Of a DNA stretch of 64,000 nucleotides, positions 7,244 to 63,769 are shown in pieces. Within the stretch, counting starts at the first letter, position 1, and every line of letters begins with the position of its first letter. The DNA comes from Henricia sp. BOLD:AAB3569. Its lineage: Eukaryota; Echinodermata; Asteroidea; Spinulosida; Echinasteridae. The position numbers and the translations under genes are program-made. Location: NCBI GenBank assembly GCA_037783545.1, contig JBBELK010000384.1:434001-498000 (forward strand), given 5' to 3'. The notes below the pieces were generated by a model. The model was not told the origin of the DNA. It saw only the letters and a list, made by a program, of their open reading frames with translations, and did not search any database.

Positions 7244-7762
7244 TGCTCGTTATGGTCCGTTTATGAACATACGTAGTCGAGAAACCCGTCAAAGCTACTT
7301 TAAATTCACATCCACATATTAAAAGACAATTAAAAGACAACCAACGTTTTCGTTGGCGGAGCAATAACTTTTTAAAGCACTTTGCCCGAGCGCGTCTACG
7401 CGCACGCGCATGCCGCCGTCCTCGTAGCAAGCCACACGGGCTTTCTTTACCTTATTAGGTAAAAATTTACTTTTCGCTTAGCGATATTTTCAGTATTGTT
7501 ATAACGGACGTATTATCTGGTGCATGGATGTACCCAGAAATGGTTGGTTAGGTTAATAGATATATTGGTTGTGTGACTTGTGCATGTTATCGTCATATTT
7601 CTCCGCTGTGCGGTTCAAGTTTGTAGTACTCACGGCCGGTTGTACTGTGTTGTGTACAAATTACAACGAGTGCGCTATGTACATGCGGGAGAGGCACTCC
7701 ATGCATGACCCGAATGCGGATCGCACAGTTCACAGCTGCAAGGGCCCGAATGTGGATGTGTA

Positions 7763-20629: not shown

Positions 20630-20696
20630 ATGGCGTTCTTCGGGTCCTACAAAGAAATCCTCTTCGTCCTGTTGACTCTTTCCATCGTTTACGAAG
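20630..20696 (+). CDS. Gene B exon 1: signal peptide
   Basis: ATG at 20630 codes MAFFGSYKEILFVLLTLSIVYE plus one base, ending at a GTAAAA donor, phase 1. Charged then strongly hydrophobic, a typical secretory signal. The intron that follows is 8.4 kb and filled with repeats. No clear TATA box or other promoter element was identified upstream. Confidence 0.65.
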
Positions 20697-23600
20697 GTAA
20701 AAACATATTTTCTTTTACAGAGGCCTATTTAAAACACAAAATGGCTACCAGGAAGTAAAGGATTATTACGCAGTTGTAATAGTATTTCCGAGGGTAAAAA
20801 GTCAGTTTGTTTTTTTACGGCTTTTGCTATATCCTTCCAAATGTTGGGCTCCATTTAAGCAAAGCGTGAAAGCTGAGACTGAATTACTTAACGGAATTTG
20901 ACCGGGGACACCTTTTGTCGGTAATTAATTTAGCTTGCGTCGGGGAGAATGAATGTTTATTTATTTATATTTATTTGTTTATTCCATTTATTTACCCAGG
21001 GTGTGCCAAAACAGTTTACAAAAACTGGTTTCCTGCAAACACACATAGAACAAATATACTAAATTGAACAACTTCATAATCACAAACAAACTGGAATAAG
21101 ATACATTTGTACAACAACTACAACATACAAAAACTAATGGTTACAGAAGAACAACATCACAAGTAGTTATTATTGTGTGCTTGGGCGGGATCTTCGAACC
21201 CACGACCTCCTGCAAACAAGGCAGACGTCTTAACCACTCGACCACCTAGCTATATAGCCGGTGTTGAATGGCCGGTTCAAATCAGTTACCAACGGGGATC
21301 GCAAATAATAAGTAAACAATTGTTGTGTTCGCCACTCCAGTTAGGCCTACAATTTTAGTTTAAGAATGTGTATATGTAGTACGCGAAATGATACTTGAGT
21401 GGCCATGCAGTTACAACCATTTTTGTGAATTTATCACTTTTGTGAATAGGTCACGGGTTTTGTGAATTTTTTACCACTTTTATGAAAAGGTCCGGGGTTT
21501 TGTGAAAAACGCCTCTTTTTGTGAATTTCAAGCTCACGAGTTTTGTGAAATATCGCCCACTTTTGTGAAATTTCACAAAAATTATGACCTATACCCGTAT
21601 AATATTCACAAAAGTGGTAAATTCACAAAAATGGTTGTAACATGGCCCCAGAGCGCATCACTGTCATACAGTTATACCCATAAATTTATATTATCGCAAA
21701 AGTACTTAATATTTTAGAAAAAGACAAATATCTTTGGAAAGGATAGAATGTCCTCTGTCTAATGGCATTAAGATACGTCATTGCCATGGGCGACTAAACT
21801 ACGACATGTATTGAAATCGGCACTTTGACAAGTTGCCCAAAAAGTGGATGGAGCGAATCATCATGACTCGGCCTTCTGGTATAGGCCGTATATATATATC
21901 GAATAGCCGCCATTTCGTGGGGCAGTTTCTTTGTTCCTTGAGGACATGCATGCTTGCATTGTTGAACAGTTTTAGTAACAAAAGGTGCCCCACAAAATGG
22001 CAGCTATTCAATATGGTCTATACGTAATGTAGGCCTATATACGTGCCACAAAAAAAGGAAGAGATCAGATTATTTTTGTTAATCATTTTCCAATGTGTAC
22101 GATTTGTCACAGTGTTGATTTCAATACTTTATACAACTCTCTTATGTGTTCATTCATCTTTGGTAATGACATAATAAACCTAATACTAGACCTTTATCAC
22201 CTCTTTCTCTTATTAAAATGAACGTAACCAAAGCGAGGCTTGCAGAAAAAATAGTTCATTGTGTGCATCACAATGGCACAGGCGTTGCGTGATCAAGAGA
22301 GCGCGCAGCGTGTACGCGCTATCACGCGGACGCGCAGATGCACCTATATATAAAATTAGCAACCTCACGTACGTTCCGACCCCATAACCGAGTCTTTTTC
22401 AAAGGCTTCAATTTGAAGACTCTGCTAAGGTTGCAAACATGAGGCTACTAATTTCACAGTGTGAAAATAAACACGAATACAACATTCATTTCATGACCTT
22501 TGACCTCGAAGGATATCAGTCCAAAAAGTGTGTAAACTTGTGTCCGGAAGAAAATATAGATAGGCCCTAGCATGCTGATATAGAATTATGGTCCATCTAT
22601 GCTCTTCAAGTTGTTAATACCCAGGGCAACTCAACAAAGAATTTCTGTATATCTAAAAAAAAATGTAATAATTTTTGAAGTATTTTAGTATTTTAAAGCC
22701 ATAATTTCTTGTAAAAAGGAAATTGACACGATCACATGCATAGCCGATTCTAAGTTCCTCGTATTCAGTTCAAACCGAAAGAAATTTGCATTTGCACAAT
22801 GTCAACAAAACTAAGAATACTGAATAAACTAACGAACCAGGAACGACCGTGCGTACTTCCTTCTTAGATAACATTAGGCGGCCTATTTAGTATAGCAACA
22901 CACCTAGGCCTAAATAGACTGTCGAAGTGAATACGTCATCTTTTGTTGGATGCCAAGGACTCTATAAAACTAAAAATCACTGAATCGTGTCCCTGTACTT
23001 TGCAATAGCACTTCCCGGTATGATTTATTCCCTCGTCTATATCTGACCAGCATGTGCTGAACAAGTGCCGTTCGTGATTAAAAGTGCATTCTGGAGAACT
23101 CATACCGCGGTCTAAAACTATCGCCATAACTCGACCATTTGCGAACCTCTGGAATTGTTGACACTTTTTCCGATAACATTTAGTATTTTTGCAGCCTAAA
23201 ATTCACCCTATTGTGTCTACTACTTTTCTCAAACTGACAACGACCTTTGCACCGTATGCCAACAACAAAGACAGCCGAAGTGTGACGTGGGTTGCCATGG
23301 CAATTGGCTTTAAACTATCAGGGCCGTCGGAAAAAAATGTTACATACAATTTGCAAAATTTGAATGTCCCATCTAAACTATCCCGGGCAATTTGTGGAGA
23401 GAATATTGTTTTGTTTTCTTCTCCGCAGCGGTGTAAATGCGATTTTAGTGATTGGTTTATATGCTTATATCACGACCGAGTGGTCTCTAGCGCATTAAAC
23501 TCAAAACCTTATCTAGGTCGTGGGTTCGAATCTAGCCCTGCCCAAGTCCACGGTGTGTGTTCCATTGGGCAAGGCACCTTGTCATAAATTGCCTCTCTCT

Positions 23601-26600: not shown

Positions 26601-29600
26601 ATCAGACGGAGTTTGGTGGCGATTGGGGAGCGGATTATTGCGCTAGCTTAAACCGTATCGGTCCGATCTTAAAGTTCAGGCGCCGCCATATTGGAAAAAA
26701 ACAACATAACCTATGGGGGATACTGTATCCCCCATAGTTCTAGGGGTAAACTAAGCCTACACACCAACAAACCGGAATTGGCTACCGAACATCGAGTGGA
26801 GTATAGCGGAGATCATTATAGGATTAGGTCATCAGTAGTTTGATTTATAAAAAGGAAAAAAGCAATTACTGTACTTTTAAAAGTAAGACATGGGTCATAG
26901 TTGCACACGGGACGAACGAATAAACGGCCATGCAGTTTTTATATGAAAGAGATCGATACAAAAAGTGATATATCGTGCGTATTTATTTATTTATTAATTT
27001 ATACCATTTCTTTGCCCAGGGTATGCCCAAACAGTTAAAAACTGGTTTCAATTGGGGCCCTGTGTACATAAATTATTACTTTAAAACAATTCAAATTAAA
27101 CTCAAAGGAACAAGTGACAAACAAAATATATCTTAACATATTAGGCTAATATTACATTACAAATAGCCTATGTATAAAACATTCCAAAAATTAAACTATA
27201 GTAGGCTTATCAAAAAATTAATTAGTAATTTACATAATTACAACCAAATCACCCAGCAAGGTTTTTTCGTAGTTCTCGTTTGAATGTACTTGAGGAATCT
27301 AGTCCTAAGTTATTCCATATGTTTGCACCGGTCATACATGTAGCTAAACTTTTGGCATAAGATTATTTTTTGACTAATTGAACTTTCAATACCTTATTAG
27401 TTGATTGTCGCGTTTCACGAATCGGTGTAAATTGGATGAACAGATTCTTCATGTACGAAGGAGTCATGTTGTTTAGACATTTAAAAACAAGAATAGCCTT
27501 TTAGCAATATTTAACTCTTTCAGAAAAAAAACCCAGTTTAGTCTAGCAAACATATCCGCTGAAGGGGTGAGGGAGGTGCATTTTAAGATCATCCGTTCAG
27601 CCCCTTTTAGACATTTATTGAGAATGCTGTCATGAGATATGTACCTTCCTCCCGCCCCATACAGTGCAACAATATTCTAAAGAGGGCATAATAATAGCTT
27701 ACAAAAGCACGAGTCAACATGCCCATGCAGTTTTTCTTACATATTCAACGTTAGGGCCCCAACTCAAGTATTTACAACACTTTGTTCTAATAATAAGATT
27801 ATTGGGAGTATATAAATTTAGTTCTGTATTTGAGATTTTCTGCCTTGAACCAATAAGCATTTACGGCAAGTTGATTTATTATATGCACCAATTGTAAATT
27901 CTGTCAAGAGCTATATATTCAAATTATGTTCTATGTCTTATACTAGAGGAGCTACACCGTGGAGTCATCTGCATACACGAACAAACTGCAGTTACAGGGG
28001 GTACAAGATGGTAAATCACTGGTATAAATGATGAATAAAAGTGGACTCAAGATCGATCCCTGTGGAACACCAGTATTTAGTTGCAAAGCCTTTGATATAT
28101 TGCCTCCAATATTTACAGACTGACTGCGGCCACTTAAGTATGACTTTAACCAATTGGTTATAAGCAAGCTGAAATATTAAGCCTTTTAAATTTGTTCAGG
28201 AGGATATCATGATCGCCACAATCAAAAGCTTTTAAATCTATAAACACACCTGTAACCTCTCCATTATCAATAGCGTGGAGACATTTATTTGGCTATCTGC
28301 GATAAGGTCTATTAAGCAAACGTTGGCGCCAACGTTAACAAACCGTTCGCGTGTTTGGAACGCAGCCCTGGTGTTACGAAGGAACGTAGTGCTTCGTGAA
28401 ATATCGGCCCCTGTTCACACTGACCATTCCTTCCTCCATGCACTGACACACACAGAATGTTGACCTCGCCCATTGTTGCAGTAAGTGCAGCGGCATCGAC
28501 AGATTGTTAAAGTGGGGGAGGTGGGAGGGGTGGAGGTGGCAAGAGGTGGTACAGCACATTGCCATTGAGGGGTGGGCAAGGGGTGAAGCAGAACAACACT
28601 TTGGGGGGTGGGGGCCGCGGGGGTGTGTTGGGGGTGGGGGAGTGAGTAAGTGTGTTATGAAAATGGATTGTTTCAGGATGACCTCTCCAGTTTTGTGTTT
28701 CACAGTTCTATTTATTATCACTGACCGCGTGCCATGAGCTTCTGAATATTTGTTTAACCGCCATGGGCCTATTTAATTCAAGTCTGTTTGGTCGTGGCCA
28801 TTGATCTTGCCCTCAAATTTCCCTCAAAAATGAAAATCCTGCCCTGTTTCCACAAAAGTAGCCTTGAGGAAAAATCTGAATTCGGAGGGACAGAATCATT
28901 CAGTTTACAGTAACAAATTCCTGGAATATATGCCCGTTTATCAATGTACATGTCATATGTACTACAAACTGTAAGAGATTTTCCTTCAAACTAATTCCTT
29001 AAACAATTTGTAATGCATTTGTAATGGATCTTACTCCTTAACATTAAACAAAAAAGTCTCAATTTATCATGCAGGACTTGCCCTTGATCTCGGAGGCAAG
29101 AATGTTCACCAGAGCACTACAGCTGTATATGGCAACGATGGACCTCCGGTGAGAGCCATAGATGAAAATCAAAATACTGCCTGCCACACAGGTATTGAAG
29201 GTTGATTATACATGTAAAATCGGACTTGAAAAAAAACAAATAAGGTTAAATTTTGAGTTGAATAACTAACCTAGTTAAAACCACTTTCATGCTACAGAGA
29301 AGTTTAACAGATTTCAAAAATACTTTTAGCTTCAAAAATTGATCAATTGCTTGCTGTGTTATAGTAGGCATATACCGGTATGCTTGTTAAAATATCTGTT
29401 TCCGTGCGAAATCATCAATGAAAGTAATGCACGTACCACTGCTACAAAAACTAGGTTCATTTTAGTAGCTTCCCGCTATATTTTGCTTGGTTAGTATGGA
29501 CACAGTAATGATGGATATGATAGTTATTGACGTCATGCGTATGGCACACCAAAGCGGAAATAATTCAACACTGATAATTTTGCCATCAACCCTGAAAAAC

Positions 29601-50598: not shown

Positions 50599-50638
<40 letters not shown>

Positions 50639-56600: not shown

Positions 56601-59600
56601 AACACTTTTGAGCCTGGCTCGTGGTCGCGCACGCGCCCTGGTCAGCGTGTATGGAACACGCACATGCACACAGAAACTGCACATTCCCGACCGCAAAATG
56701 TGCACTGTGACAAGTATCTGGTCGTGTGCGTGCACATACGATACACTTGCTTTACGCGTAACGTGCGCGATCAAACAAAAACAACTTGACGCCCAGCTAG
56801 CAGTTCATACGAAGGCGTTGTATGAAAGTGAATGCAAAACATGGCAAAACGTTTTACCGATTTACACAAAAAGGTATTTACGAATGGGATTAAAAGTAGG
56901 TTTGGCCAGTGTTAAACAATCCGTTTAAAACCAGCTGGGGTCCTGTGCGCTAATAATGGCCCTCGCCTGACAGCTCGGGCATTATCAGCGCCCAGGACCC
57001 TAGCCAGTTTTAAACGTATGTTTAAGACTGGCCAAACCCACTTTTAATCCCTAACTAAAATTCTGGGTGATAAAATATCGTTTGTTGTTGTGTAATATGC
57101 CTATTTTTCCTTTAAAAACCGAGTTTTTCGTAAAAAAATACAGGTTTTAGGTTCTAGAATACAGGTGTGTAATCCAGAAACTTGGCAGCCGTGCATGGTG
57201 TCTAATTAAACCTGACTTTTAATACTTTTTTCTTAAATCTACCTTACAAATGTTTCCTTTCAACAGTACCAACTGGACCCCCAGCTAACATTCAAGTTAC
57301 CAACACCATGGAACGTCAGCTGGCTTTCTCATGGAACCGGCCACTTTGTGGCACTCGAGGTGGTGCTATCACCGGATACAACTACCGATTGGTACCAGTA
57401 TCACCAACCAGCCATTTACAAGTCATTAAAGAGTCTACCAGGACACAGAAATATGTCACCATTATGGATTTGATACCCTACACACAGTACAGGTTTAACA
57501 TTTCTGCAAATACCAGCGTTGGAGCGGGGCCAGTTGGTGAGGCAAGCATCACCAGAACGGACGAGTCAGGTTAGTGATATGACCGTTTGTGATAACCACG
57601 TCATACTTTATATTCAGGATTTGTCCAGTTGAACCGCAATAAGAGCGCTGTCAATGCACACTGCTTCTAACATTAATCATTTCAAGGTAGAACACATGAT
57701 TGGTATCTCGAAAATCAGAAATGTTCACAGATTTACACATAACTTACACAATATAAACATGATGACGGTAGAAAACTAAACCTGAAATGGTTTTTTCTGA
57801 AGTGCTAGTCTTTGAGAAATTAGTAAAACAACTTTCGCCTCATGAGACGAAAATTCACTTTGCCCCAAACACCGCTTCGCCGAAATGCTACTTTGTGCCA
57901 AAAGCGACTTCGTGCACAGGCTTTGGTTCAGGGCGAAGTGGTTTTTGGGCGAAGTGACTAAAGCTTTTTTTGACTGTTTACTCAGGTTGGTTTTAATCAT
58001 GGATATTTTCAAACACACAGGGAGATAAAACTATTTGTAAGGTTTACCAATCATGTGTTCTACCTTTAAGTATTAAAGTTAACTTGTAATAGGGTTTTCA
58101 GGACCTGTATCGGTATTCACAAAACTCCATCTAAAGATTCGTGGCCCATTTAAGTCGATCACCCAAAATCAACAAATTAGCACATGCTTAACACTGTTAT
58201 GTCACAATATCTCTGCTATCAAAGCAGCACAGACCATGTGCAGACGTTCAAAAAAAGTTGCAAATGAAAATGTTTGGCCCGGGGCGAGACACTTTCCCTG
58301 GGGCAAGAACGTTAGTGGAAAAAGGGGCAGGGGCGAGTTCTCACTTCTTCAAGTAAGGGACGAAGTGCCGATCTCCAGGGTGAGTTTGCCCTGGGGCAAG
58401 TTTCAGAACAACAAGTGTGAATCGACGCAGTGTTAAACTCGGGGGTGAGTCACCCCGGGGCGGCCCTGGGGTTGCCCTGGGGCGAGTTTTAGTGGTTCTA
58501 GTGGGAAAAGGCCTAAAGTGGTAGAGCAGACTGACCTGAATGATTTAGTTACCAAAATGTACTCTAAAACTGTTAAAGCGTACTTATGTATGTGCAAGTC
58601 TTATGTCCTAATTTTTCTATTTATTAAATTGAACAGTACCTACGGTTCCTCTGAACGTCAAAGTCCAGAATTCTGATGATGAATCGATCACGCTTAAATG
58701 GGATGAGCCAAATCCTCCACAGGGAATCATAACACGTTACAATATCCGGTACTACGTGGTTCAACTAACGGACAGTTCAACGGTCAGTTTAACGGACATC
58801 CCAGATGCGACTGCCTTAACGTATCGAATCGGAAACCTGCAAGCGAATATAACCTACTTCATACAGGTATACGTCATTAAAATGTATTACGTAGTATTTG
58901 CTAATTAACGATTAAGTGATTTTGTTTTTATGGATTATGACCAAGGGACCCCTGGGGTGAATTGATTCGATACAAATGTCCATGATGAGTTTGGGAAATC
59001 TGGATGCACTGAAAAGCAACTTGGCTTCACCGAGATTCGAACCGCGGGCCTTCTGCTCAACGTGCAGACTCCCTACCAATTGAGCTATGGAGCCAACTGG
59101 TGGTCTCAAATAATGGTAGTCTCAAATCATGGTAGTGCAGTTGTTTCTTAATGATTGGGATTGGCTATCACGTGACCTTATTATAAGGTCACTGGGTCAC
59201 CAATAATAATACTACGCCCCAAGAGCTAGATCATCTTCCCCCAAATTCTTCACTGTAAAATGGAGGTCACATGTTGTGCCATTCACTTCTACGGTGAACA
59301 CGGTATGGATTCTGTACTTCACACCTGCTGTGGATACTTAGTGTCCATGTATAGAGAAAGTTCACCAGGCGCTGTTTGTGTGAAACGCGCAAAAAACTAA
59401 TTTAATTATATCACTCATCGACCTTTTCAAATATCGAAATTTACAAAAATCAGTATTGATCGGTATTGTATTGGCACAGTCCAATTGTAGTTTTGGTGTG
59501 TTAGTTTGTGCAAGATAAAGCTTATATTATGTTTTGGCCTTGATAACCACCCAGGTCCAAGCTGTGACGGTTGTTAGGCCTAATGATGGACCATGGAGTG

Positions 59601-62600
59601 TTCCAGTCAATGCAACAACGAGAATTGGAGGTGAGAGATTATCATTTACCACTTGCACGGTCACGTGTTGGTGGGATGAGTTCCGGACAAGGAACCCAAT
59701 CCCTGGTGCACGGCAGAAAGTGTTTAAGAGACCTCAAATGTGCAATATTTAGATAATTGTTAGATAAAACAACTGTTAAAGCAGACGATTTCATGACAAG
59801 CAAATACATTTCTGAAATTATTTATTAATAAATGAACGTCATGCATGTCAAGCGACTTGCTTGGGCATGTTAAATTGTTACAGCGTAATTCACTATATAA
59901 TAAGTAACATTAACAAATTAGTTATGGGCCAGGCAAATAAGCAAAACACAATCAGCAAATAATTAAGCTAAACAAAAATAGCAGTATAGCAAATTAAATC
60001 AAATCATGAGTTAGCAAGACCATCGTAAATGCAATAAGCAACTAATATAAATTAATTAAGTAGCAAGATTATATCCGGCCGAATATAATTACCTAGCTTG
60101 CTCTTCATGAAAACTAAACAGGATAGGCCTGCCTGGTCAGTGTCCCATAAACTGCAGTGCAGTCATTGGGCCAACGTCTCCGAGAACCTTGGATGCTACA
60201 TGGTAGTTCACCAGTAGTTGTAGGGTCAGCCAGACAGTTCATAGCACATATTTTACAATGGACGAAAGTCAACGTCACAGCATCCGACATGGTAACGACG
60301 CGAGGGAGTCATTGTTCATGCAATAGTCTTTGACTTTTAAGATAGATTTTTAAGAATTATATGGACAAATTTTGCCTTAAATCCATAGAGACATGCAAGG
60401 TGGGGTTCTCGGTGGGGTTCCCAGCTCGCCCTTACAGGGCGCTGGGACGGGCTAATCTGTTTGCGCCCTCATTGGCCACAATTTTATACAACACGTGATC
60501 ACAAGGTCATGTCTTTTTCTTGTAAACAGACGTAAAAACAATTTTCCAGCAGACAATGTGGGACTCGCACAAAGTACACTCATTTTATTCTTAATTGATT
60601 TTTGCACTGTATATATAAGTGTTGGCATACTATTTATTACTTATTAGTCTGGCAGCAAGCAACCCACAGTGCTCCGCGGGCCTGTTTATATGCAACCTTT
60701 TTGTCACGTGTTTCCATCACAGAAATCTGTGCAAGCACATTAGCCCGTCCCAGCTCCCTGTATGGGCGAGCTGGGTACGAGCGATCAGACAAAGTTTCGT
60801 GAGGATTGGGCTGCAGGTTATTGCGCTAGCCACGTTTTAATGTCCGCTTGTTAAAGTTGCTGCACGGCCATATTGCTATATCACACTTCTACCTATTGGG
60901 AATATGCGTATCTCCATAGGGGTACTCCTTTTCTCAGAGTGGGTCTTCTCTTCGATCACATGTGTACATTTGTGCATGTTTCTTGGAAGGAATTTTGTGT
61001 ATCTGTCTAAATACATGTGACTGAAGGCGCATTGCAAAATTACCCCTACTCTTGGGTTCTTAATAGCATTCCTTAATCTGAAGACAAATAACCTTTTTTT
61101 TTCAGTTCCCGGACTGGTTGGAAACCTCCGTGCAACAAGTCGCACAGAAAATTCAATCACACTGGACTGGGACCCACCAACACAGCCAAGGGGACAAATT
61201 AAATATTACATTGTAAGTGTAAAATATTTCTATATTTATTGAATAATTTTTGCACACCACAAATATCTGTTTATCTCAAAATATTACCTCGCAACCTGTG
61301 GCTGAACAAAAGCAATTCATACGTGGGTCTTTAATCTAGAGCCTCTTTTGGAGATCAAGATCAAATTTTCCTGCAGGTGATTTGAGAACAGAAGAAATAA
61401 CTTCAACTTGTTTTAAGAAGATAACTTAAGCCCCAAAAGGGTAATAAATAGACCGTGTAAGTCTTGCGGTCCTCACACTTCCGGTCTTTTGCAAAAGACT
61501 TTTTTTACCATTCATTCAACACAAAAGCCTCATTGATTATATGAGTCTTTCCACGGTAAAGGGGGCATTTTGGCAACACAGACCATATTTTCCAGAAAAT
61601 ACCTTTGTCTGGTCTCAAAATAAAAGAAATAACTTTCAGTTGTTGTGAAGAGATAACTTAGGCACAAAAAGGGTTACAAATAGTGTGACAACATGCCTTT
61701 CTAAAAACCCTGTGTAGAAATTTCCAATATATATATATGCTCGTAACCGGTACGGCCTAAAATGGGAGGGGAAAAAAAGTGTCCGTCCCGGTTACAAACG
61801 TATATTTGAAGTTTGTACACAGGGTTTTTTGAAAGGCATGTTGTCACACTATTTGTAACCCTTTTTGGGCCTAAGTTATCTCTTCAGAACAACTGAAACT
61901 TATTTCTTTTATTTTGAGACCAGACAAAGGTATTTTCTGGAAAATATCGTCTGTTTTGCCAAAATGCCCCCTTTACTGTGGAAAGACCATATAACATTGG
62001 ACATTAAAGGAGCTTGTCCAGATTTTTCCAGAAAATGAATTTTGTTGTAACAATGATGAAAAATACCTCCCCAAGATACCATCCACGGGAAGAAAATGGG
62101 AAATTTGCAATCTCCAAAAAGGTTGGTATAATCACTGCACTGCTTTATGGAATGGATAAATTACATGTGTAATTTACAAAACATTGGTGATTGAGAGTGC
62201 AAAAATTCAGAATGGTAATGAGAAAAATATGACAAATGATATGGTATTAAAATCTCAACATCCATGGGAAAAATGGGGGTCTCAAAAATGTGATCTTGAC
62301 ACGCCCCTTTAAACATATAACTTTGCTCTCCACTTTGCTGTACAGGTAGAGTACAAGAAGGCTTCCAGTGCTAATGATTACTTTATGATTGAAGTAATTA
62401 AGCCCACATTCACGCAAGATGATCTAAATCCTGTGACAAAATATGAGTTCAAAGTTGCAGCTCGAAATCAGCAGAACCAAGGAGAGAAGGCGTCTATCAT
62501 TGTGTTTACCAAACCCCAATCAAGTAAGACATTATGCTATGTTTACACCGAAGCACGACCAAGTTAGGGTCGACTTACGAGTTGTAAAATTCTGTATTTC

Positions 62601-63769
62601 TTGGACTCGTGAGTGTTCATGAAACTTTTGTCAAGGGGGCAACCGAGAAAGTTTGCCGACCATTTTTTGAACCGTTCCATACGGTCGGGAAACTTGTGCC
62701 GAGCGATGGCGATTCCCACCGAGTTATTGCGAGTGTTCAGGACTAACTTACGACCTTCTGACAATTCAATGAATTTCAACAAGCTACTTGTGTTTACTTA
62801 TAAATCTGACGGAGTTGTCGCGACCATATAATCAGAATCAATGGCTGATCCTAACCCACGTATGTATCTCGATGTTTAGGTGGAACATACTTGTAAGCTT
62901 CATGCAATTCAGCCTACGGGCTGCAAACTGAGGTTCATTAAACCCATTTAATTTAAGTGGGGTGTTACGGCCGAGCGGTCTAGTGCATCGAACTTAAGTT
63001 CCTGTGCTAGTACTAGAATGTAGGTTCGATTCCTGGCCATGACGGGTTGTGGCACCTGTGCCCTTGAGCAAGGCACTCAACCACACTTGCTCCCATTCCT
63101 GTAATTGGCGGTCCCTCCGCTGTTGGATGTGGTGAATAAATAAATACAAAAAAAAATCATTAAAATAATAAAAATTCAATGGAAATTCCAGACGATAGCT
63201 AAAAATTCCATGTAGTAGCCAGGTACTGCCCAGAATTTGTGTTGTATTTTCGCATTTTGGGACTCGAACCCCACCTGAACCATTCAACCACCGAGTGGGC
63301 TGGTGCTGAATGTGCAAAACTCATAGTATTCTCGGGTGGGACTCGAACCCACAACCTCCTGCATTCTAGAGCAGACATATTAACTATTCGATCATCGAGT
63401 AAGCCGTTGTTGAATGTTAAAATCTTCATAGCATGCTCGGGTTTGACTCGAACCCAGAACCTGCTGCATGCTAGAGCAGGCACCTTAACCATTCAACCTC
63501 TGAGTAAGCCGGTGCTGAATGTGTGAAACTTCATAGCATACTCGGGTTGGACTCGAACCAACGACCTCTTGCATACTAAAGCAGACATCTTGACCACTGG
63601 ACGTAGTTTCTGTCCAATTTTACACTCCCCAGTTGTCTAAAGTTCTGGTTCTTTTCCTTAAAACAGATCCCCCTACTCCTCCGGTACCTGTCTCGTATGA
63701 TGAGCTAGCTACAGACACTACAGTCACCATCGGCTTAAATACAGTCACGACTGGGGACGACTACATAAA
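20630..63769 (+). CDS. Gene B: Tie-like multidomain receptor ectodomain with N-terminal fucolectin domain (partial, 18 exons, continues past window)
   Basis: Eighteen exons totalling 3113 nt give about 1037 residues, open at the right edge. Order by approximate residue: signal peptide 1-22, fucolectin-like domain 23-170, Ig1 171-277, Ig2 278-364, EGF1 365-408, EGF2 409-460, EGF3 461-506, FN3-1 507-607, FN3-2 608-705, FN3-3 706-806, FN3-4 807-908, FN3-5 909-1003, start of FN3-6 from 1004. The Ig-Ig-EGFx3-FN3 order and motifs such as FCLPDPYGCSCA (EGF2), CICPPGFSGDAC (EGF1) and RLIVRG (end of Ig2) match vertebrate TIE1/TIE2, the angiopoietin receptors. Vertebrate Tie has an extra Ig between EGF3 and FN3, only three FN3 domains and no lectin domain, so this is a divergent relative. 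The transmembrane helix and kinase or phosphatase domain are not in the window. Every exon boundary up to FN3-3 is phase 1; only FN3-4 and FN3-5 carry an extra phase-0 intron each. Confidence 0.82.
20955..21290 (-). mobile_element. tRNA-derived SINE sharing its 3' end with the third LINE
   Basis: Minus-strand head resembles a tRNA with GTGGTCGAGTGGTTAAGACG (A-box side) and GTGGGTTCGAAGATCC (B-box) at 21250-21180. The 3' part (20955-21035) has a (TTTA)n tail and CCCAGGGTGTGCCAAAACAG followed by ACTGGTTTC, matching 26977-27050 in the LINE copy. Confidence 0.65.
21401..21647. mobile_element. Inverted-end repeat built of TTTTGTGAA words
   Basis: GGCCATGCAGTTACAACCAT and complement at the ends; interior contains many TTTTGTGAA or TTCACAAAA words at irregular spacing. 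Confidence 0.6.
21735..22280 (+). repeat. Counterpart of the 14165 repeat, plus AACGTAACCAAAGCGA block
   Basis: AGAATGTCCTCTGTCTAATG and GGTAATGACATAATAAACCT match 14165-14610. The adjoining TTATTAAAATGAACGTAACC and TTCATTGTGTGCATCACAAT recur at 31558-31652. Confidence 0.5.
21895..22020. repeat. Inverted repeat (GAATAGCCGCCATTTCGTGG)
   Basis: GAATAGCCGCCATTTCGTGG is mirrored by CCACAAAATGGCAGCTATTC around a 70-bp loop. Another instance of a GCCGCCAT word within an inverted repeat. Confidence 0.55.
22916..23335. mobile_element. Two partial copies of the AGACT MITE family in inverted order
   Basis: 22916-23020 reads AGACTGTCGAAGTGAATACG and on through AAAATCACTGAATCGTG; 23270-23335 reads AGACAGCCGAAGTGTGACGT and GTTGCCATGGCAATTGGC. 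The spacer is unassigned. Confidence 0.5.
23465..23645 (+). mobile_element. tRNA-derived SINE
   Basis: Head GACCGAGTGGTCTCTAGCGC and B-box GTGGGTTCGAATCTAG, followed by the widespread invertebrate SINE core (CCATTGGGCAAGGCACCTTG) at about 23561-23580. Orientation plus. Related to the copy at 62964. Confidence 0.65.
23675..24067. mobile_element. Two palindromic MITEs of one family abutting end to end
   Basis: Copy 1 (23675-23871) and copy 2 (23872-24067) both begin AAGCCCGCCGCACACCTTTG and end with its complement, sharing a CTTAAG junction. Each is about 196 bp and folds on itself; inner parts are inverted between copies. A related terminus (AAGCCCGCCGCACACGAGAG) occurs at 31039. Confidence 0.8.
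24127..24275. mobile_element. Palindromic MITE next to the dimer
   Basis: Inverted arms AAGGCACAGGCTCGTCAGCA and its complement enclose GCGC-rich and TTTCGTGGCACGAA segments. Flanked by TTA/TTAA-like bases. No coding capacity. Confidence 0.7.
24280..24504. mobile_element. MITE of the GGCCAATTTCATGGCGC family, right end worn
   Basis: Left end GGGCCAATTTCATGGCGCTG, then AGCACAAAAATTTGCTTAGC; inverted half includes TTTTGGCTGGTAACCC and AAGCGCCATG. The outermost right bases no longer match. Confidence 0.6.
25504..26176. mobile_element. Palindromic element with 9-bp target duplication (Mutator-like MITE)
   Basis: About 280-bp inverted arms (start TAGCTAAGATAATCTCAGCT) flank a short unique centre near 25800-25900. 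CTGTTGATA occurs directly on both sides (25495-25503 and 26177-26185). Nine-base duplications are typical of Mutator-like elements. No coding capacity. Arms are nearly identical, suggesting a young copy. Confidence 0.8.
26196..26748. mobile_element. Near-perfect palindromic element, second 9-bp-duplication copy beside the first
   Basis: Arms of about 270 bp meet near 26472 and start TACCCCTAGAACTATGGGGG. Flanks AACCAAGCC (26187-26195) and AACTAAGCC (26749-26757) look like a 9-bp duplication with one change. The identical predicted peptide on both strands is simply a result of the palindrome. It begins 10 bp after the duplication of the preceding element. Confidence 0.78.
26975..28310 (-). mobile_element. 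Decayed third LINE fragment (non-LTR reverse transcriptase)
   Basis: Minus-strand pieces include NWLKSYLSGRSQSVNIGG, NTGVPQGSILSPLLFIIYTS and catalytic VYADDSTV (28167-27952), preceded by a frame reading VTGVFIDLKAFD near 28260. The copy has several stops and frame changes and lacks its 5' half. Its 3' end (26975-27060) has a (TTTA)n tail next to CCCAGGGTATGCCCAAACAG, nearly the same as the SINE end at 20955. Confidence 0.75.
28503..28650 (+). repeat. G-rich low-complexity tract in gene B intron 1
   Basis: GTGGGGGAGGTGGGAGGGGT and similar blocks. No period is evident; frames across it are composition artefacts. Confidence 0.6.
29075..29191 (+). CDS. Gene B exon 2: fucolectin domain, first third
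   Basis: 117 nt, phase 1-1. Translation starts GLALDLGGKNVHQSTTAVYG and includes VRAIDEN and TACHT, matching the start of eel-fucolectin/tachylectin-4 type F5/8C-like domains (QSST...., A-D-N, C-H-T pattern). These domains bind fucosylated glycans; conservation of the binding site here cannot be proved from sequence alone. Confidence 0.72.
30117..30440 (+). repeat. G-rich minisatellite (17-bp unit GGCTGGGGCTGGGGTTA)
   Basis: A degenerate GGGCTGG start passes into regular copies of a 17-bp unit from about 30285 to 30435. Four runs of G per short span give strong G-quadruplex potential on the plus strand. The array interrupts the left arm of the enclosing foldback. Confidence 0.85.
32285..33194 (+). 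repeat. Direct tandem duplication of a 455-bp unit in the G-rich region
   Basis: 32285-32739 and 32740-33194 are almost the same sequence, each carrying a GGGCTGGGCTGG array, a TTGCCAACCCTCCCGGATTT segment and the same accidental 64-codon frame. The identity indicates a recent unequal exchange. Confidence 0.85.
34328..34423 (+). CDS. Gene B exon 3: fucolectin domain, middle
   Basis: 96 nt, phase 1-1. Translation includes EQWWRIDLGAFYCLRKITII and NRIAKTNT. The WWRIDLG and I-x-NR motifs are the most conserved core of fucolectin domains; the Arg of NR is a fucose-contacting position in the family. The donor is GTACAG, weaker than the others. Confidence 0.75.
34472..35155. mobile_element. CAG-ended element with short inverted termini
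   Basis: Ends read CAGTGTTCTCCACGGG and complement of CTCGAGAACTCTG; ACCTAA flanks both (34466-34471 and 35156-35161). CAGnGTTCTC-type termini occur in hAT-related MITEs. A tandem CCCGCGAAGCCAC duplication sits near the left end and GCTCGGGCGGTCG repeats near the right. Confidence 0.55.
35455..35870. mobile_element. Inverted-end repeat (GTTCCCATTGGACT)
   Basis: Left terminus GTTCCTATTAGACTTTCTTT, right terminus complement of AGTCCAATGGGAAC. Interior has repeated TTTACAGGG, CGGAAAGTT and GCGACC words and an additional internal TTCCCATTGGACTTTTCG. Confidence 0.55.
35871..36868. other. Intron 3 stretch with no identified feature
   Basis: Mostly A-rich sequence without coding potential on either strand or clear inverted ends. 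ACCAAATAAACGGAAGCCGA and the following 100 bp look like part of an old dispersed element, but no family could be named. Confidence 0.3.
36869..37145. mobile_element. MITE of the GGCCAATTTCATGGCGC family
   Basis: Ends TGGGGCCAATTTCATGGCGC and complement of GCTCCATGAAATTGGCCCCT, with GTTAGCACA and GCTTAAGC words inside. About 277 bp. Confidence 0.65.
38213..39282. mobile_element. hAT-like non-autonomous element with 8-bp duplication
   Basis: GTAGTCAC flanks both ends (38205-38212 and 39283-39290). Short inverted termini read TAATGCTGTAACGAA and TTCGGTTACAGCATTATA, followed inward by GGTTCGGTTCGG-rich stretches. Eight-base duplications are characteristic of hAT elements. The interior has no transposase frame. 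Confidence 0.7.
39696..39857. mobile_element. Palindromic MITE, second copy of the AGACT family
   Basis: Ends AGACTACTAAAGTGAAAACG and TCACACTTTAGTCGTCT; interior GTTGCCATGG and TTTGGGTCTACACTAAAACC match the copy at 3862. Confidence 0.68.
39922..40553 (+). repeat. Tandem duplication around expanded poly-G tracts
   Basis: A G tract (39922-39944, 23 bases) plus about 210 bp of flank is repeated about 398 bp downstream, where the tract has grown to about 166 bases of G with scattered T (40177-40342). Flank 39945-40154 matches 40343-40553 with very few differences. GGATCCAGGAATTTTGTAGA before the second tract places it in the same repeat family as 1042-1228. Confidence 0.85.
40948..41801. mobile_element. 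CpG-rich 0.85-kb palindromic-ended element
   Basis: Termini are inverted copies beginning TAATGCTACGTTTACACCAT and running about 55 bp. The interior is far richer in G+C and CpG than the surrounding intron, with repeated CGGTnnGGTG and CGTCACG words. Reading frames inside are by-products of composition. A foreign-looking composition suggests recent insertion or resistance to CpG loss. Confidence 0.65.
42100..42170. mobile_element. Right-end fragment of the GGATCC MITE family
   Basis: GGCCGCCCCCTGGATCCGCG followed by CCTGA matches the right terminus at 1228, preceded by poly-T blocks (41985-42112). Left end not found. Confidence 0.55.
42350..42520 (-). repeat. Dispersed repeat family D, minus copy in gene B intron 3
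   Basis: TTGTAGAAATTTCAGCCACT, GCAGTAATACTTCAGAAAAC and CTGAAAAATCCAAGCACG are the complement of the family seen at 13505 and 16104. A separate perfect hairpin (CCAAAGATCGC/GCGATCTTTGG) follows at 42524-42556. Confidence 0.6.
42813..43043 (+). CDS. Gene B exon 4: fucolectin domain, last part
   Basis: 231 nt, phase 1-1, acceptor CCACTGCAG, donor GTGAGT. Translation begins AKRLGGARVRAGFSPHYADN, continues with ARYVTVDLYRDDFLHFAEIM and ends INPSNSQ. RLGGARVRAG and RYVTVDL match the second half of the fucolectin fold, supplying the second conserved Arg. The family's usual disulphide cysteines are largely absent here. Confidence 0.78.
43396..44000. mobile_element. Palindromic MITE (GGGGCCAATTTCAT family) with a nested MITE
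   Basis: Outer ends CCAGGGGCCAATTTCATAAA and complement of TTTATGAAATTGGCCCCTGG. A TTAAAGGAGCGTGACC element (43559-43925) is inserted inside, so the outer element is the older. Other family members: 17082, 24280 and 36869. Confidence 0.7.
44001..44577 (+). repeat. Diverged direct repeat of about 350 bp
   Basis: TTAAAGTTAGGCATGATGTG with GATTTTGGGGCTATTTTTGT (44125-44190) is echoed by TTTAAAGTTCAGCTTGATGT and GATTTTGGGCTTTATTTGTT (44465-44530). Confidence 0.5.
44578..44965. repeat. CCCAGCC array beginning with a perfect hairpin
   Basis: 44578-44622 is a hairpin of 20-bp arms (CCTTCAGGCTGGGTTGAGAA). It leads into a degenerate 20- to 25-bp unit CCCAGCCCgAAGCCnTC up to about 44965. It is the complement of the GGGCTGG arrays in 30-33 kb and ends beside TATTGGCCGCCATTTTGAAT. 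Confidence 0.7.
45100..46290. other. Intron 4 stretch with no gene; CT-rich tract
   Basis: A pyrimidine-rich tract of CCTCC/CCCTC words spans 45796-45880; GAGACGAAGCT repeats lie at 45205-45245. The 154-codon frame at 45458-45922 has no domain and ends in the low-complexity tract. Confidence 0.4.
46297..46617 (+). CDS. Gene B exon 5: Ig-like domain 1 (Tie Ig1-type)
   Basis: 321 nt, phase 1-1. It starts GVMDFTLITNPARLGSSGD, resembling AMDLILINSLPLVSD at the mature N-terminus of TIE2, and ends GVFYAEATAG...TRIQAIIL, aligning with the [20 protein letters not shown] stretch of TIE2. The F-strand cysteine is replaced by Ala (YAE) and only one cysteine remains (TGCAMGG), so the standard Ig disulphide is lost. 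An alternative acceptor three bases upstream (46294) would add one codon. Confidence 0.72.
46881..47008. mobile_element. Palindromic MITE (GGGATTAAAAGTGGG family)
   Basis: GGGATTAAAAGTGGGTAGGT mirrored by complement of CAAACCCACTTTTAATCCC, with inner AAACGTATGTTT-type palindromes. Copy two at 56886-57051. Confidence 0.7.
47767..48027 (+). CDS. Gene B exon 6: Ig-like domain 2 (Tie Ig2-type)
   Basis: 261 nt, phase 1-1. Begins ASTIRTRPRQRTKTVNIGDF and ends DEGIYSCFIIG...FMRLIVRG. The D-x-G-x-YS motif and closing RLIVR match TIE2 Ig2 (DAGVYSARYIGG...RLIVR). Only the F-strand cysteine is present; vertebrate Ig2 also lacks the usual pair. Confidence 0.78.
48431..48562 (+). CDS. Gene B exon 7: EGF domain 1
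   Basis: 132 nt, phase 1-1. Starts ACPAGMWGSPCLYTCHRCYN and contains GGICDDKTGACICPPGFSGD. It aligns directly with TIE2 EGF1 (C-x-x-x-x-WGPECNHLC...NNGVCHEDTGECICPPGF). All cysteines are retained. Confidence 0.85.
48563..49678. other. Intron 7 of gene B, no other gene seen
   Basis: No domain, RNA gene or clear inverted repeat was recognised; some CpG-containing sequence at 49100-49400 resembles old repeat. Confidence 0.35.
49679..49834 (+). CDS. Gene B exon 8: EGF domain 2 with the Tie signature FCLPDPYGCSCA
   Basis: 156 nt, phase 1-1. Begins FRGRDVFGQSGSHSCSGTDD and contains RLFCLPDPYGCSCAAGYTGL then DC. The stretch FCLPDPYGCSCA is identical to vertebrate TIE2 EGF2 and is the strongest single indication of Tie ancestry. 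The expected first cysteine of the repeat (C-x-x-x-TFG in TIE2) is absent (RGRDVFG). Confidence 0.85.
49946..50748. mobile_element. CCCCGGGG-rich palindromic element with internal poly-G tract
   Basis: Ends are inverted (AGGCCTTTCCCCACTAGAAC and complement of GACTAGTGGGAAAAGGCCTT). Many GCGAACTCGCCCCGGGGC blocks recur inside. A run of 38 uninterrupted G occupies 50600-50637. A shorter relative lies at 58258-58515. It sits between gene B exons 8 and 9. Confidence 0.7.
50905..51000 (+). CDS. Gene B exon 9: EGF domain 3, first part
   Basis: 96 nt, phase 1-1. Translation begins ECPDGKYGADCKQTCHCALG and ends CLKDTGECSG, aligning with TIE2 EGF3 (C-x-x-GFYGPDCKLRCSC...). The domain is interrupted here by an intron and finished by the small next exon. 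Confidence 0.78.
51157..51620. mobile_element. TTAAAGGAGC MITE copy in gene B, with minisatellite insertion
   Basis: Begins CTTAAAGGAGCAGGTGTCCA and ends CTGGACAAGCCCCTTTAAAT. At 51420-51515 it carries several copies of a 27-bp unit (TTTTAGCCAAAACCAGATTC, then CGATTCG). Confidence 0.7.
51420..51515 (+). repeat. 27-bp minisatellite
   Basis: About three copies of TTTTAGCCAAAACCAGATTC followed by CGATTCG. A two-copy version is at 55998-56056. Confidence 0.75.
51773..51814 (+). CDS. Gene B exon 10: 42-nt exon completing EGF3
   Basis: Between acceptor TTTGTCTAG and donor GTAAGT, phase 1-1, coding ACNAQYSGGNCQCS. C-x-x-x-YSGGNC is the usual closing motif of an EGF repeat and completes the cysteine set begun in exon 9. 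Small but both splice sites are strong. Confidence 0.7.
51815..52922. repeat. Intron 10 of gene B with a repeat matching gene A's 3' region
   Basis: About 110 bp at 52560-52680 is a diverged inverted copy of 18400-18510 (AATCTGAGAGTGGGAAGTTT against ATTCCCACTCTGAGATTGAC). The rest is AT-rich; no Ig domain exon, as might be expected from vertebrate Tie, was found. Confidence 0.5.
52923..53013. mobile_element. Small palindromic MITE just upstream of gene B exon 11
   Basis: 91-bp near-perfect palindrome, CACTATGAGCAACTAACAAT and complement. It ends 72 bp before the exon 11 start, so it lies within the branch-point region of that intron. Confidence 0.7.
53086..53388 (+). CDS. Gene B exon 11: fibronectin type III domain 1
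   Basis: 303 nt, phase 1-1. Contains LTVTWLPDPCISGYTLQYAV and HSTYSVYITPHYG, the B-strand Trp, C-strand Tyr and the Y-x-V motif of FN3. The third Ig domain that sits between EGF3 and FN3-1 in vertebrate Tie receptors is missing: exon 10 (EGF end) is followed directly by this FN3 exon and no Ig-coding exon was seen in 51815-53085. Confidence 0.82.
53535..54194. mobile_element. Tc1/mariner-like foldback element (non-autonomous)
   Basis: Inverted arms of about 210 bp begin CACTCGGCAAAAGAAGTTCT and are flanked by TA at 53533-53534 and 54195-54196, as expected for Tc1/mariner insertion. The 240-bp centre has no transposase. Arm identity is very high, implying recent activity. It lies between FN3-1 and FN3-2 of gene B. 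Confidence 0.8.
54362..54625 (-). repeat. Dispersed repeat family D, minus copy between FN3-1 and FN3-2
   Basis: GAAGAAATATCAGCAACATA, TTCAGAAAACCTTTAAAATC and CATGCATGG, then AATGTGGTGTTTGTTACCAT, the complement of family D. Confidence 0.6.
54844..54959. mobile_element. Short palindromic MITE
   Basis: CAGCCGATTTCACGAAACTT mirrored by AAGTTTTGTGAAATCAGCTG complement, centre near 54900 (TTACGCCATAAATTAATTAA). 116 bp. Confidence 0.7.
55020..55310. mobile_element. Probable hAT-like fragment (TAGGGATGGGATG end)
   Basis: Starts AATAGGGATGGGATGTTTAA with AACCGGTTAACCGAAAAAAT, and near 55290 an inverted CACCGGTTAACCGACAC. The matching right terminus was not identified. Confidence 0.4.
55431..55724 (+). 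CDS. Gene B exon 12: fibronectin type III domain 2
   Basis: 294 nt, phase 1-1. Starts NPLSVEPIEVTAQDSTSVTL, then RWQEVFCAFHYKVQYG, ending VTVTTNMTG. FN3 Trp and Tyr landmarks are present; extra cysteines (FCAF, GCDY, CLC) suggest local disulphides not typical of the fold. Confidence 0.8.
56513..57051. mobile_element. Composite of two MITE families
   Basis: 56513-56885 runs from TATTCATAAATACCTTAGAC to complement AAGGTATTTACGAATG, then 56886-57051 is a GGGATTAAAAGT palindrome starting without a gap. The first half reappears at 47010-47560 (inverted, again next to a GGGATTAAAAG palindrome) and from 63786 to the window end. Confidence 0.62.
57267..57569 (+). CDS. Gene B exon 13: fibronectin type III domain 3
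   Basis: 303 nt, phase 1-1. Begins VPTGPPANIQVTNTMERQLA, then FSWNRPLCGTRGGAITGYNY and LIPYTQYRFNISANTSVGAG. Complete FN3 fold in one exon, including the canonical L-x-P-x-T-x-Y-x-F-x-I pattern. Confidence 0.85.
58258..58515. mobile_element. Second copy of the CCCCGGGG-rich element
   Basis: Contains GGCCCGGGGCGAGACACTTT, repeated GGGGCGAGTT blocks and the right terminus TCTAGTGGGAAAAGGCCTAA. The left terminus is not clear. Intron between exons 13 and 14. Confidence 0.6.
58637..58866 (+). CDS. Gene B exon 14: fibronectin type III domain 4, first part
   Basis: 230 nt, phase 1 to 0. Begins VPTVPLNVKVQNSDDESITL, then KWDEPNPPQGIITRYNIRYY and NLQANITYFIQ, ending at a GTATAC donor. The domain is completed by exon 15. 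The WDEP-NPPQG-I-x-x-YN pattern is typical of FN3 repeats in receptor phosphatases and related receptors. Confidence 0.8.
58905..59098 (-). mobile_element. tRNA-derived SINE with near-complete tRNA head
   Basis: The minus strand from 59094 reads GGCTCCATAGCTCAATTGGT and continues through a perfect 5-bp anticodon stem (TCTGC/GCAGA) around loop ACGTTGA and a T-loop GTTCGAATC. The D and T stems are imperfect, so it is not a functional tRNA gene. It runs on into about 120 bp of unrelated body ending in an A-rich stretch, as in SINEs. Confidence 0.6.
59555..59630 (+). CDS. Gene B exon 15: fibronectin type III domain 4, last part
   Basis: 76 nt, phase 0 to 1. Codes VQAVTVVRPNDGPWSVPVNA then TTRIG, the F and G strands of FN3-4 (V-x-A-V...G-P-W-S). 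Joins exon 14 in frame to give YFIQVQAV. Confidence 0.75.
59631..60420. other. Intron 15 of gene B, nothing identified
   Basis: AT-rich, with many short AGCAAnTAA words at 59925-60070. No coding or RNA feature is supported. Confidence 0.35.
60421..60774. mobile_element. Inverted-end element (CAGCTCGCCCTTACAGGG)
   Basis: CAGCTCGCCCTTACAGGGCG and GCTGGGACGGGCTAAT are mirrored by ATTAGCCCGTCCCAGCTCCC and TATGGGCGAGCTGG. About 354 bp in the exon 15 to 16 intron. Confidence 0.62.
61106..61212 (+). CDS. Gene B exon 16: fibronectin type III domain 5, first part
   Basis: 107 nt, phase 1 to 0. Codes VPGLVGNLRATSRTENSITL then DWDPPTQPRGQIKYYI. FN3 A to C strands; donor GTAAGT. The intron inside the domain sits at a different point from that in FN3-4. 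Confidence 0.78.
61541..61993. mobile_element. Inverted-end element with about 190-bp arms
   Basis: ATGAGTCTTTCCACGGTAAA and GGGGGCATTTTGGC are mirrored at 61965-61993; arms include GACCAGACAAAGGTATTTTC and AGGCATGTTGTCACACTATT. The centre has an AT dinucleotide run at 61724-61738. Confidence 0.68.
62003..62313. mobile_element. TTAAAGGAGC MITE copy, opposite orientation
   Basis: ATTAAAGGAGCTTGTCCAGA to CTTGACACGCCCCTTTAAAC; its internal GCAGTGATTATACCAAC complement and GATATGGTATTAAAATCTCA match the copies at 14661 and 51157 read in reverse. It ends 33 bp before gene B exon 17. Confidence 0.7.
62346..62523 (+). CDS. Gene B exon 17: fibronectin type III domain 5, last part
   Basis: 178 nt, phase 0 to 1. 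Begins VEYKKASSANDYFMIEVIKP and includes LNPVTKYEFKVAARNQQNQG, ending KPQS. L-x-P-x-T-x-Y-x-F-x-V-x-A is a textbook FN3 E-F motif. Confidence 0.82.
62964..63150 (+). mobile_element. tRNA-derived SINE with (AATA)n tail
   Basis: Head GGCCGAGCGGTCTAGTGCAT, B-box TAGGTTCGATTCCTGG, core CCCTTGAGCAAGGCACTCAA, ending in AATAAATAAATAC at 63135. Same family as 23465. It lies in the intron between gene B exons 17 and 18. Confidence 0.7.
63255..63610 (-). repeat. Tandem array of tRNA-like units (105-bp period)
   Basis: Four head-to-tail units each carry a minus-strand B-box (GGTTCGAGTCC-type; GACTCGAACC at 63261, 63340, 63445 and 63550) and most carry a tRNA-like A-box side (TTAACCATTCAACC region). Spacing is 79 then 105 and 105 bp, so the first unit is shortened. 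Between heads lies a short constant linker (GCCGGTGCTGAATGTG). It may be an amplified SINE head or a tRNA-like satellite. Confidence 0.65.
63667..63769 (+). CDS. Gene B exon 18: start of a further FN3-like/juxtamembrane module
   Basis: 103 nt, phase 1 to 2, donor GTAAGA. Codes NPPTPPVPVSYDELATDTTV then TIGLNTVTTGDDYIK. A proline-rich linker followed by a T-x-T-I-x-L strand resembles the membrane-proximal segment of receptor tyrosine phosphatases and of large FN3 receptors. It is the last exon seen; the gene continues beyond 64000. Confidence 0.65.

Follow-up and report, generated by a model that had tools for sequence, protein, structure and literature searches.

A starfish receptor tyrosine phosphatase gene with a lectin-capped Tie-type ectodomain and its head-to-head kinase sister: candidates for an antagonistic receptor family sharing one sensor

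We analyzed a stretch of 64,000 nucleotides, hereafter the window, from the starfish Henricia sp. BOLD:AAB3569 (assembly GCA_037783545.1; 740.7 Mb, 2104 contigs), which spans positions 434001 to 498000 of contig JBBELK010000384.1 (C384). The gene on its plus strand (C384R) is predicted to encode a receptor tyrosine phosphatase whose Tie-type ectodomain is capped by an F-type lectin domain. Its neighbor in divergent orientation (C384L) carries a similar ectodomain and a Tie-like tyrosine kinase, and the two genes appear to be opposite switches sharing one sensor type. The exon structure, the two effectors, the common ectodomain, and its mosaic divergence were read from the sequence. On this basis, we consider it probable that these genes belong to a family of antagonistic receptors, kinases and phosphatases, in which sequence exchange keeps the common sensor similar. 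No description of such a pair, with kinase and phosphatase attached to one type of sensor, was seen among the titles listed in searches of the open-access literature.

The C384R model consists of 19 exons that form a single open frame of 1117 codons from 20630 to 64743 (window coordinates are used unless a contig is given). Exon borders were picked to give GT-AG introns, and each of the 18 introns is of this type. Eighteen exons, all on the plus strand, lie inside the window between 20630 and 63769, and one lies just past the window end (Table 1). A preliminary description of the same DNA had listed the pieces of a receptor ectodomain in this range, and they were found where it had placed them, in order, on a single strand, and in a single frame without a stop. 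The range itself, however, was too short, as the gene continues past the window end to ~82 kb. It had also been claimed that all junctions are of phase 1. This was observed for 15 of the 18 introns, and the rule was restricted to domain borders because the introns within FN4 and FN5 (the fourth and fifth FN3 repeats; phase 0) and within the last, membrane-proximal domain (phase 2) differ.

Beyond the window, the gene continues as a phosphatase. A single transmembrane (TM) helix, read from the sequence at 66168-66260, follows the membrane-proximal FN3 domain, in which Fn3_PTPRU (PF23144) scored over its cut-off (3.6e-6). The joined exons of the first protein tyrosine phosphatase (PTP) domain, D1, matched PF00102 at 2.2e-62 with some pieces missing, and they retain KNRY, DYINA, WPD, and VHC/SAGVGRTG. 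The second domain, D2, matched PF00102 at C384:513028 (window 79028) and shows the motifs WPT and VHC/SDGLGRS; the combination of WPT with HCSDGLGRS suggests weak or no activity. Several PTP exons on C384 were listed in the genome-wide searches, and part of the PTP exons was placed. Kinase motifs were searched for on both strands of C384:414001-558000, a stretch whose left end lies just to the right of the kinase of the sister gene. Only two pattern matches were obtained, DFGMSR at 67224 in a 58-amino-acid frame and ALEAI at 87054 (minus strand). Both were rejected, as they lie outside the model exons and in frames implausible for a kinase.

The preliminary description had taken the gene for a Tie receptor with an added fucolectin domain. 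In the Tie plan, EGF3 is followed by a third Ig domain, and the FN3 domains number three. Here, the EGF3 exons are followed directly by FN3 exons with no Ig3 between them, five FN3 domains and the PTPRU-type FN3 are present, and the cytoplasmic part is a tandem PTP, so that Tie receptor identity had to be given up. Although the ectodomain is indeed of Tie type, the downstream exons encode a phosphatase, and the kinase lies on the opposite strand in the neighbor gene; a Tie receptor kinase at this position is, in our judgment, next to impossible.

A hidden Markov model search of the exons against Pfam agreed with the earlier domain assignments in part. F5_F8_type_C_2 (PF22633, 1.4e-10) and fn3 (5.3e-50, five stretches) scored over cut-off, the EGF and Ig_3 models remained below their own cut-offs, and the Ig1 exon showed no Ig match. 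In phmmer searches of PDB, EGF1-3 matched TIE2 at 5.8e-26, and the next different molecule was SCARF1 at 6.8e-7. MEGF10/11 entries were absent from the 21 PDB matches of the EGF block, and MEGF proteins were thus not directly compared. Ig2 together with the EGF block matched TIE2 at 1.6e-32, the alignment starting in Ig2, and Ig1-Ig2 alone gave weak Ig matches (contactin-2, 0.0034). A single-sequence AlphaFold model of Ig1 was uninformative (mean predicted local distance difference test score of 38) and was discarded. Because Ig1 had neither a Pfam Ig match nor a usable model, its identity as an Ig domain is unproven. As for the lectin domain, the best PDB matches were bass FBP32 (7.7e-14) and the eel lectin 1k12 (2.1e-8), and alignment with F-type lectins indicated that the His and both Arg residues of the fucose site, which we take to be His, Arg-x-Asp, and a second Arg, are kept and that its Asp is not. 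Of the proposed lectin-tipped Tie ectodomain, the Tie-type Ig2-EGF1-3 block, the N-terminal F-type lectin, and an apparently single gene stood, and the Ig1 fold is putative.

That the lectin exons are part of the same gene is supported, not proven, by the continuous frame and phase and by the arrangement of similar exons elsewhere, since the neighbor gene, C504, and C2103 each have closely similar lectin exons ahead of, and on the same strand as, their Ig/EGF exons. The ectodomain and phosphatase exons could alternatively represent two genes, or the lectin exons a third. Long introns (8.4 kb after exon 1), a model built from genomic DNA alone, and the presence of similar lectin exons elsewhere in the genome would agree with such a division. 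The unbroken frame and phase argue against it, and the neighbor gene repeats the order of lectin, Ig, EGF, FN3, membrane-proximal FN3, and effector on one strand, as does C691, where the lectin matches are weak. Furthermore, the first TM segment in the model appears only at 66.2 kb. We regard a division into separate genes as very improbable.

The first exon of the sister gene C384L lies in the window and its remaining exons upstream of it, and the start codons of the pair are 17,063 bp apart. By tblastn, all 18 ectodomain exon queries were matched in order on the minus strand, from C384:424819 to 401204. Identity in the matched parts was 82, 73 (22 residues), and 66% for the fucolectin exons fuc1, fuc2, and fuc3; 63 and 67% for Ig1 and Ig2; and 84, 92, 100, and 92% for EGF1, EGF2, EGF3a, and EGF3b. 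It was 88, 69, 91, 68, and 72% for FN1, FN2, FN3, FN4a, and FN4b, and 54, 50, 44 (weak, E 0.013), and 56% for FN5a, FN5b, MAD1, and MAD2. In the 3′ part, a TM exon is followed by a tyrosine kinase (PF07714, 1.8e-55) in which the G-loop, AIK lysine, HRDLAARN, DFG, IES, and the last-lobe exon are present. Its best PDB matches were to TIE2 (9.4e-48 and 1.1e-47); an EGFR-named entry (9p9u, 3.3e-47) ranked between these and FGFR1 (best 8.4e-35). The sister kinase was not among the best 136 of 1046 candidates in the Pfam kinase search of the genome, a result that was not used as evidence.

Divergence between the two C384 genes is mosaic. The synonymous divergence (dS) between the window phosphatase and the sister kinase was 0.08 for fuc1-2, 0.46 for fuc3-EGF1, 0.11 for EGF2 to the third FN3 repeat, and 0.40 for FN4, and it was saturated at FN5 and MAD2 (MAD1 was outside the dS set). 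Compared with the middle segment from EGF2 to the third FN3 repeat, Fisher tests gave 2.8e-11 for fuc3-EGF1, 2.0e-5 for FN4, and 9.9e-38 for FN5-MAD2. In the DNA alignment, which comprised plus-strand matches only, the 15 collinear blocks between 49667 and 57580 include the exons and a large part of the introns, with unaligned gaps between them; their identity is 77-93%, and in nine of them it is 86-93%. Outside this stretch, the blocks match exons, except for short flanks of fuc1 and fuc2 and scattered non-collinear repeats. Matches covering most of FN1 or FN2 were limited to the C384 pair among the best 103 of 207 candidates. A single event hardly explains this mosaic, whereas several exchanges of different age can.

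An assembly artefact, or a set of pseudogenes, might also be suspected, as near-duplicate contigs resembling haplotigs exist in this assembly (e.g., C24/C103). However, the shared blocks of the kinase gene and the phosphatase gene diverge by 7-23% and are thus not one sequence placed twice, and the examined exons have intact splice sites and active-site motifs. We give an artefact or pseudogenes hardly any credence.

A similar exchange is suggested for C691, where four tandem genes on the minus strand comprise one kinase (A) and three phosphatases (B, C, and D). Kinase A and phosphatase B were joined by a single alignment of 3,499 columns from FN3 to MAD1, running through exons and introns at 90.9% identity, whereas phosphatases B and C aligned piecemeal over this region at 69-89%. 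In the FN3-MAD1 exons, dS was 0.06 for A-B versus 0.21 for B-C (Fisher 1.6e-4). For EGF1, EGF2, and MAD2, kinase A is instead near phosphatase C, with dS of 0.09 versus 0.20 for B-C (Fisher 0.036). A tandem repeat with a step of ~141 bp was observed between EGF2 and EGF3 of all four units; it is not equally long in the kinase and the phosphatase genes, and it is a possible recombination aid.

In the genome searches, scoring was confined to the top candidates (e.g., 150 of 182 for EGF2 and 97 of 154 in another search), and the family counts are, therefore, lower bounds. Among the best 150 of 182 candidates, at least 14 matches covered the EGF2 exon (query residues 46-96) at an identity of at least 56%. 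The effector was assigned by following each EGF2 match downstream on its own strand through the PTP and kinase search matches. Seven of these 14 exons led to a phosphatase (C384R, C691 B, C, and D, C478, C1002, and C329), five to a kinase (C384L, C691 A, C230, C1875, and C221, the last being the weakest link with kinase exons 41-127 kb downstream), and two to neither. Parallel match lists suggest that C1875, C1002, and C2103 are haplotigs, in which case 11 loci are left, namely four kinase, six phosphatase, and one neither. Same-strand upstream lectin-like exons were among the matches listed for 8 of the 11 loci, with strong matches at C384R, C384L, and C504; C221 showed one doubtful small lectin match far upstream, and for C478 and C329 no upstream lectin exon was among the matches listed. 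Two loci showed further features. At C504:333.1-333.4 kb, the EGF block is followed by HYR-like sequence as judged by eye, perhaps reflecting a soluble form. At C329:2.335-2.471 Mb, match coordinates alone point to what may be a further head-to-head kinase/phosphatase pair: the minus strand carries EGF-like and kinase exons (2408-2402 kb), whereas the EGF-like exons of the plus strand are accompanied by PTP exons (2443-2471 kb).

The effector classes were not separated in trees of the ectodomains. The first tree was built from codons of Ig1, Ig2, EGF1, and EGF2 in 10 genes, one of them unlabelled, and C230, C221, and C329 were included without Ig1. It omits C478, for which only EGF2 and EGF3 were at hand, and the presumed haplotigs C1002, C1875, and C2103. 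The effector label needs four changes in this tree, all forced by starred branches; kinase C691A grouped with phosphatase C691C (96/96), phosphatase C691B grouped with kinase C221 (98/98), and C329 formed a long branch. Forcing the five phosphatases together cost 322 log units (approximately unbiased test, p-AU 7.75e-66). The second tree, covering FN3 to MAD2 in six genes, needs two effector changes; the C384 pair forms a group at 100/100, as do C691 kinase A and phosphatase B at 99/100, and a single phosphatase clade was rejected (p-AU 1.12e-67). The MAD exons of C329, C478, and C204 did not enter the analysis. A single origin of the phosphatase ectodomains was, therefore, rejected in both trees.

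If the kinases and phosphatases form an antagonistic family, gene conversion or unequal exchange would make the mosaic and keep the paired sensors alike. Both receptors would meet the same ligand, which may be a glycan and/or an angiopoietin-like protein, and sensing of fucosylated glycans by the window-gene receptor is possible. The kinase would phosphorylate and the phosphatase would dephosphorylate common targets, perhaps including each other, so that the ratio of the two receptors on a cell, probably a coelomocyte, would set the response as in activating/inhibitory paired receptors. In passages of a report on starfish coelomocytes, the surface markers include a Tie-2-like kinase and a PTPRF-like phosphatase, which are called counterbalancing (PMC13409769). 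These passages do not mention a shared ectodomain and do not show that those proteins are members of the present family. In passages of another report, tek marks an immune-like mesenchyme cluster of an echinoderm, and a shared ectodomain is unmentioned there as well (PMC10396339). Together, the two reports offer circumstantial support for the idea of opposing pairs.

Several observations weigh against this interpretation. In the fucolectin exons, the fucose-site Asp and a cysteine pair are absent and a loop is two residues longer, and fucose binding by the window-gene lectin domain is uncertain for these reasons. Upstream lectin matches are weak (about 2e-6 to 1e-3) at C230 and at all four C691 genes; they are not strong evidence because the same class of match occurs on other contigs (C620, C1, C203, and more). 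For the EGF2 exons of C504 and C2103, neither a kinase nor a phosphatase exon was among the matches listed, and one N-lobe piece of the sister kinase was not located. In the first tree, the C384 genes were nearest neighbors at 57/38 only, with C504 beside them. Neither FN5 nor the PTPRU-type FN3 is homogenised between the C384 genes. Closeness is also not special to kinase/phosphatase pairs, since phosphatases C and D of C691 share 1.9 kb at 92.6% and 1.7 kb at 86.6%. Exchange could, therefore, be a by-product of tandem duplication without functional pairing.

In the neutral form of this argument, the genes are the same, but the shared ectodomain reflects shuffling and exchange through proximity, with neither a common ligand nor antagonism. 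The patchy exchange, with FN5 and MAD2 left unmatched between the C384 genes, and the stretches shared by two C691 phosphatases are in line with it, and the ~141-bp-step repeat in the C691 genes could favor recombination. Likewise, dN/dS in FN2, the single exon tested, was 1.68 and thus not a significant indication of special selection (Fisher p 0.25); the values of fuc1 (2.74, 38 codons) and of FN3 in C691 A-B (1.69) are not claimed as signs of selection. On the other hand, exchange crosses effector classes on two contigs (C384 and C691), the ectodomain is open in the examined exons, and the starfish coelomocyte markers include one kinase and one phosphatase of similar general type (PMC13409769). 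We consider neutral sharing rather unlikely. A tentative extension of the antagonistic reading, possible although less likely than not, is that the pairs are rheostats of echinoderm innate immunity or self-recognition in which repeated conversion lets the two sensors follow one changing ligand; vertebrate Tie would then be a descendant or relic of such a family.

Table 1. Features of the window gene, its sister gene, and the C691 cluster (window coordinates unless a contig is named)
Feature	Position	Strand	Basis
C384R exon 1, signal peptide MAFFGSYKEILFVLLTLSIVYE	20630-20696	+	exon model; homologous to first exon of sister gene
Fucolectin exon a (fuc1)	29075-29191	+	exon model, Pfam, PDB matches
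Fucolectin exon b (fuc2)	34328-34423	+	exon model, Pfam, PDB matches
Fucolectin exon c (fuc3)	42813-43043	+	exon model, Pfam, PDB matches
Exon called Ig1, fold putative	46297-46617	+	exon model; conserved in paralogues
Ig2, C-terminal part aligns with TIE2 Ig2	47767-48027	+	exon model, phmmer
EGF1	48431-48562	+	exon model, phmmer
EGF2 with FCLPDPYGCSCA, Tie-type	49679-49834	+	exon model, phmmer
EGF3, first part	50905-51000	+	exon model
EGF3, second part	51773-51814	+	exon model
FN3 repeat 1	53086-53388	+	exon model, Pfam
FN3 repeat 2	55431-55724	+	exon model, Pfam
FN3 repeat 3	57267-57569	+	exon model, Pfam
FN3 repeat 4, exon 1 of 2	58637-58866	+	exon model, Pfam
FN3 repeat 4, exon 2 of 2	59555-59630	+	exon model, Pfam
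FN3 repeat 5, exon 1 of 2	61106-61212	+	exon model, Pfam
FN3 repeat 5, exon 2 of 2	62346-62523	+	exon model, Pfam
Membrane-proximal PTPRU-type FN3 ("MAD"), first exon (MAD1)	63667-63769	+	exon model, Pfam PF23144
MAD second exon (MAD2), beyond window	64506-64743	+	exon model, Pfam
TM exon, beyond window	about 66168-66260	+	sequence reading
Juxtamembrane exon, beyond window	about 69.1 kb	+	next 60 kb of contig
PTP D1	about 70.6-76.3 kb	+	motifs, PF00102
PTP D2	about 78.4-82.1 kb	+	motifs, PF00102
Stretch aligning with sister kinase gene	49667-57580	+	15 collinear DNA blocks, dS 0.11
C384L first exon, signal peptide MAFFGSYNEIFAILLAISILRE	3501-3567	-	homologous to exon 1 of window gene
C691 kinase A	EGF2 at C691:281110; kinase exons C691:273006-266860	-	genome searches
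C691 phosphatases B, C, D	EGF2 at C691:232465, 178245, 132569; PTP exons after each	-	genome searches

Other elements were also observed. A tRNA-Thr (TGT) found by ARAGORN at 21177-21251 (minus strand), inside intron 1 of the window gene, may be a repeat-derived copy. Reverse-transcriptase-like frames of long interspersed nuclear element type, recognized by eye from translations, were located on the minus strand at 6428-7249, 8605-10272, and 27952-28176, i.e., between and within the paired genes; the first 21 kb were screened at frames of at least 110 amino acids. Elsewhere in the assembly, C24:2.88-2.97 Mb and C103:1.99-2.07 Mb carry parallel, very long arrays of FN3 exons and are probably haplotigs of a giant gene, and C955 holds three cox1 copies 16,221 bp apart, where the mitochondrial genome seems to be assembled head to tail. 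This cox1 is read best if AAA stands for Asn and ATA for Ile (e.g., STNHKDIG), which corresponds to code table 9, used by echinoderms and flatworms.

Compared with TIE1 and TIE2 (TEK), the window gene has the Ig2-EGF1-EGF2-EGF3 block with FCLPDPYGCSCA in common, and TIE2 was its best PDB match (1.6e-32). It differs by its phosphatase, the N-terminal lectin, the larger number of FN3 domains, and the lack of Ig3, as compared with the Tie plan given above. The neighbor gene has a Tie-like kinase, yet a lectin-bearing ectodomain. Among echinoderms, the sea urchin SpTie1/2 is reportedly counted among the Tie receptor kinases. With the R2-type receptor protein tyrosine phosphatases (PTPRK/M/T/U and LAR), the window gene shares the PTPRU-type FN3, the single TM segment, and the tandem of D1 (WPD) and D2 (WPT). 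In contrast, its N-terminal side bears an F-type lectin and a Tie-type EGF block, where the vertebrate members carry MAM or Ig domains instead. The F-type lectins (eel agglutinin 1k12 and bass FBP32) are homologous at the level of the lectin domain, which here forms the tip of a receptor and has changed cysteines and a partly changed sugar-site motif.

The closest parallels to the pair as such are paired receptors. SIGLEC11 and SIGLEC16 are a head-to-head activating/inhibitory pair kept alike by gene conversion, and paired receptors with converted ectodomains are known from mammalian immune receptors. The C384 genes are likewise adjacent, with similar ectodomain segments, opposite effectors, and mosaic divergence. 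However, paired immune receptors signal via adaptors of the immunoreceptor tyrosine-based inhibitory or activation motif (ITIM/ITAM) type, whereas in the C384 pair the enzymes are fused to the sensor. In vertebrate endothelium, the phosphatase receptor VE-PTP (PTPRB) restrains TIE2; the ectodomains of TIE2 and PTPRB are unlike, whereas those of the C384 kinase and phosphatase are homologous. Receptor kinases and phosphatases are usually viewed as separate families with unlike ectodomains. Here, the sensor is common and the genes are adjacent, and in places the kinase and phosphatase ectodomains are closer to each other than to those within their own effector class. These genes offer a setting in which the idea of opposing enzymes reading a single ligand can be put to a direct test; they may be an invertebrate equivalent of paired immune receptors, and they give a clue to the origin of the Tie/angiopoietin system in deuterostomes.
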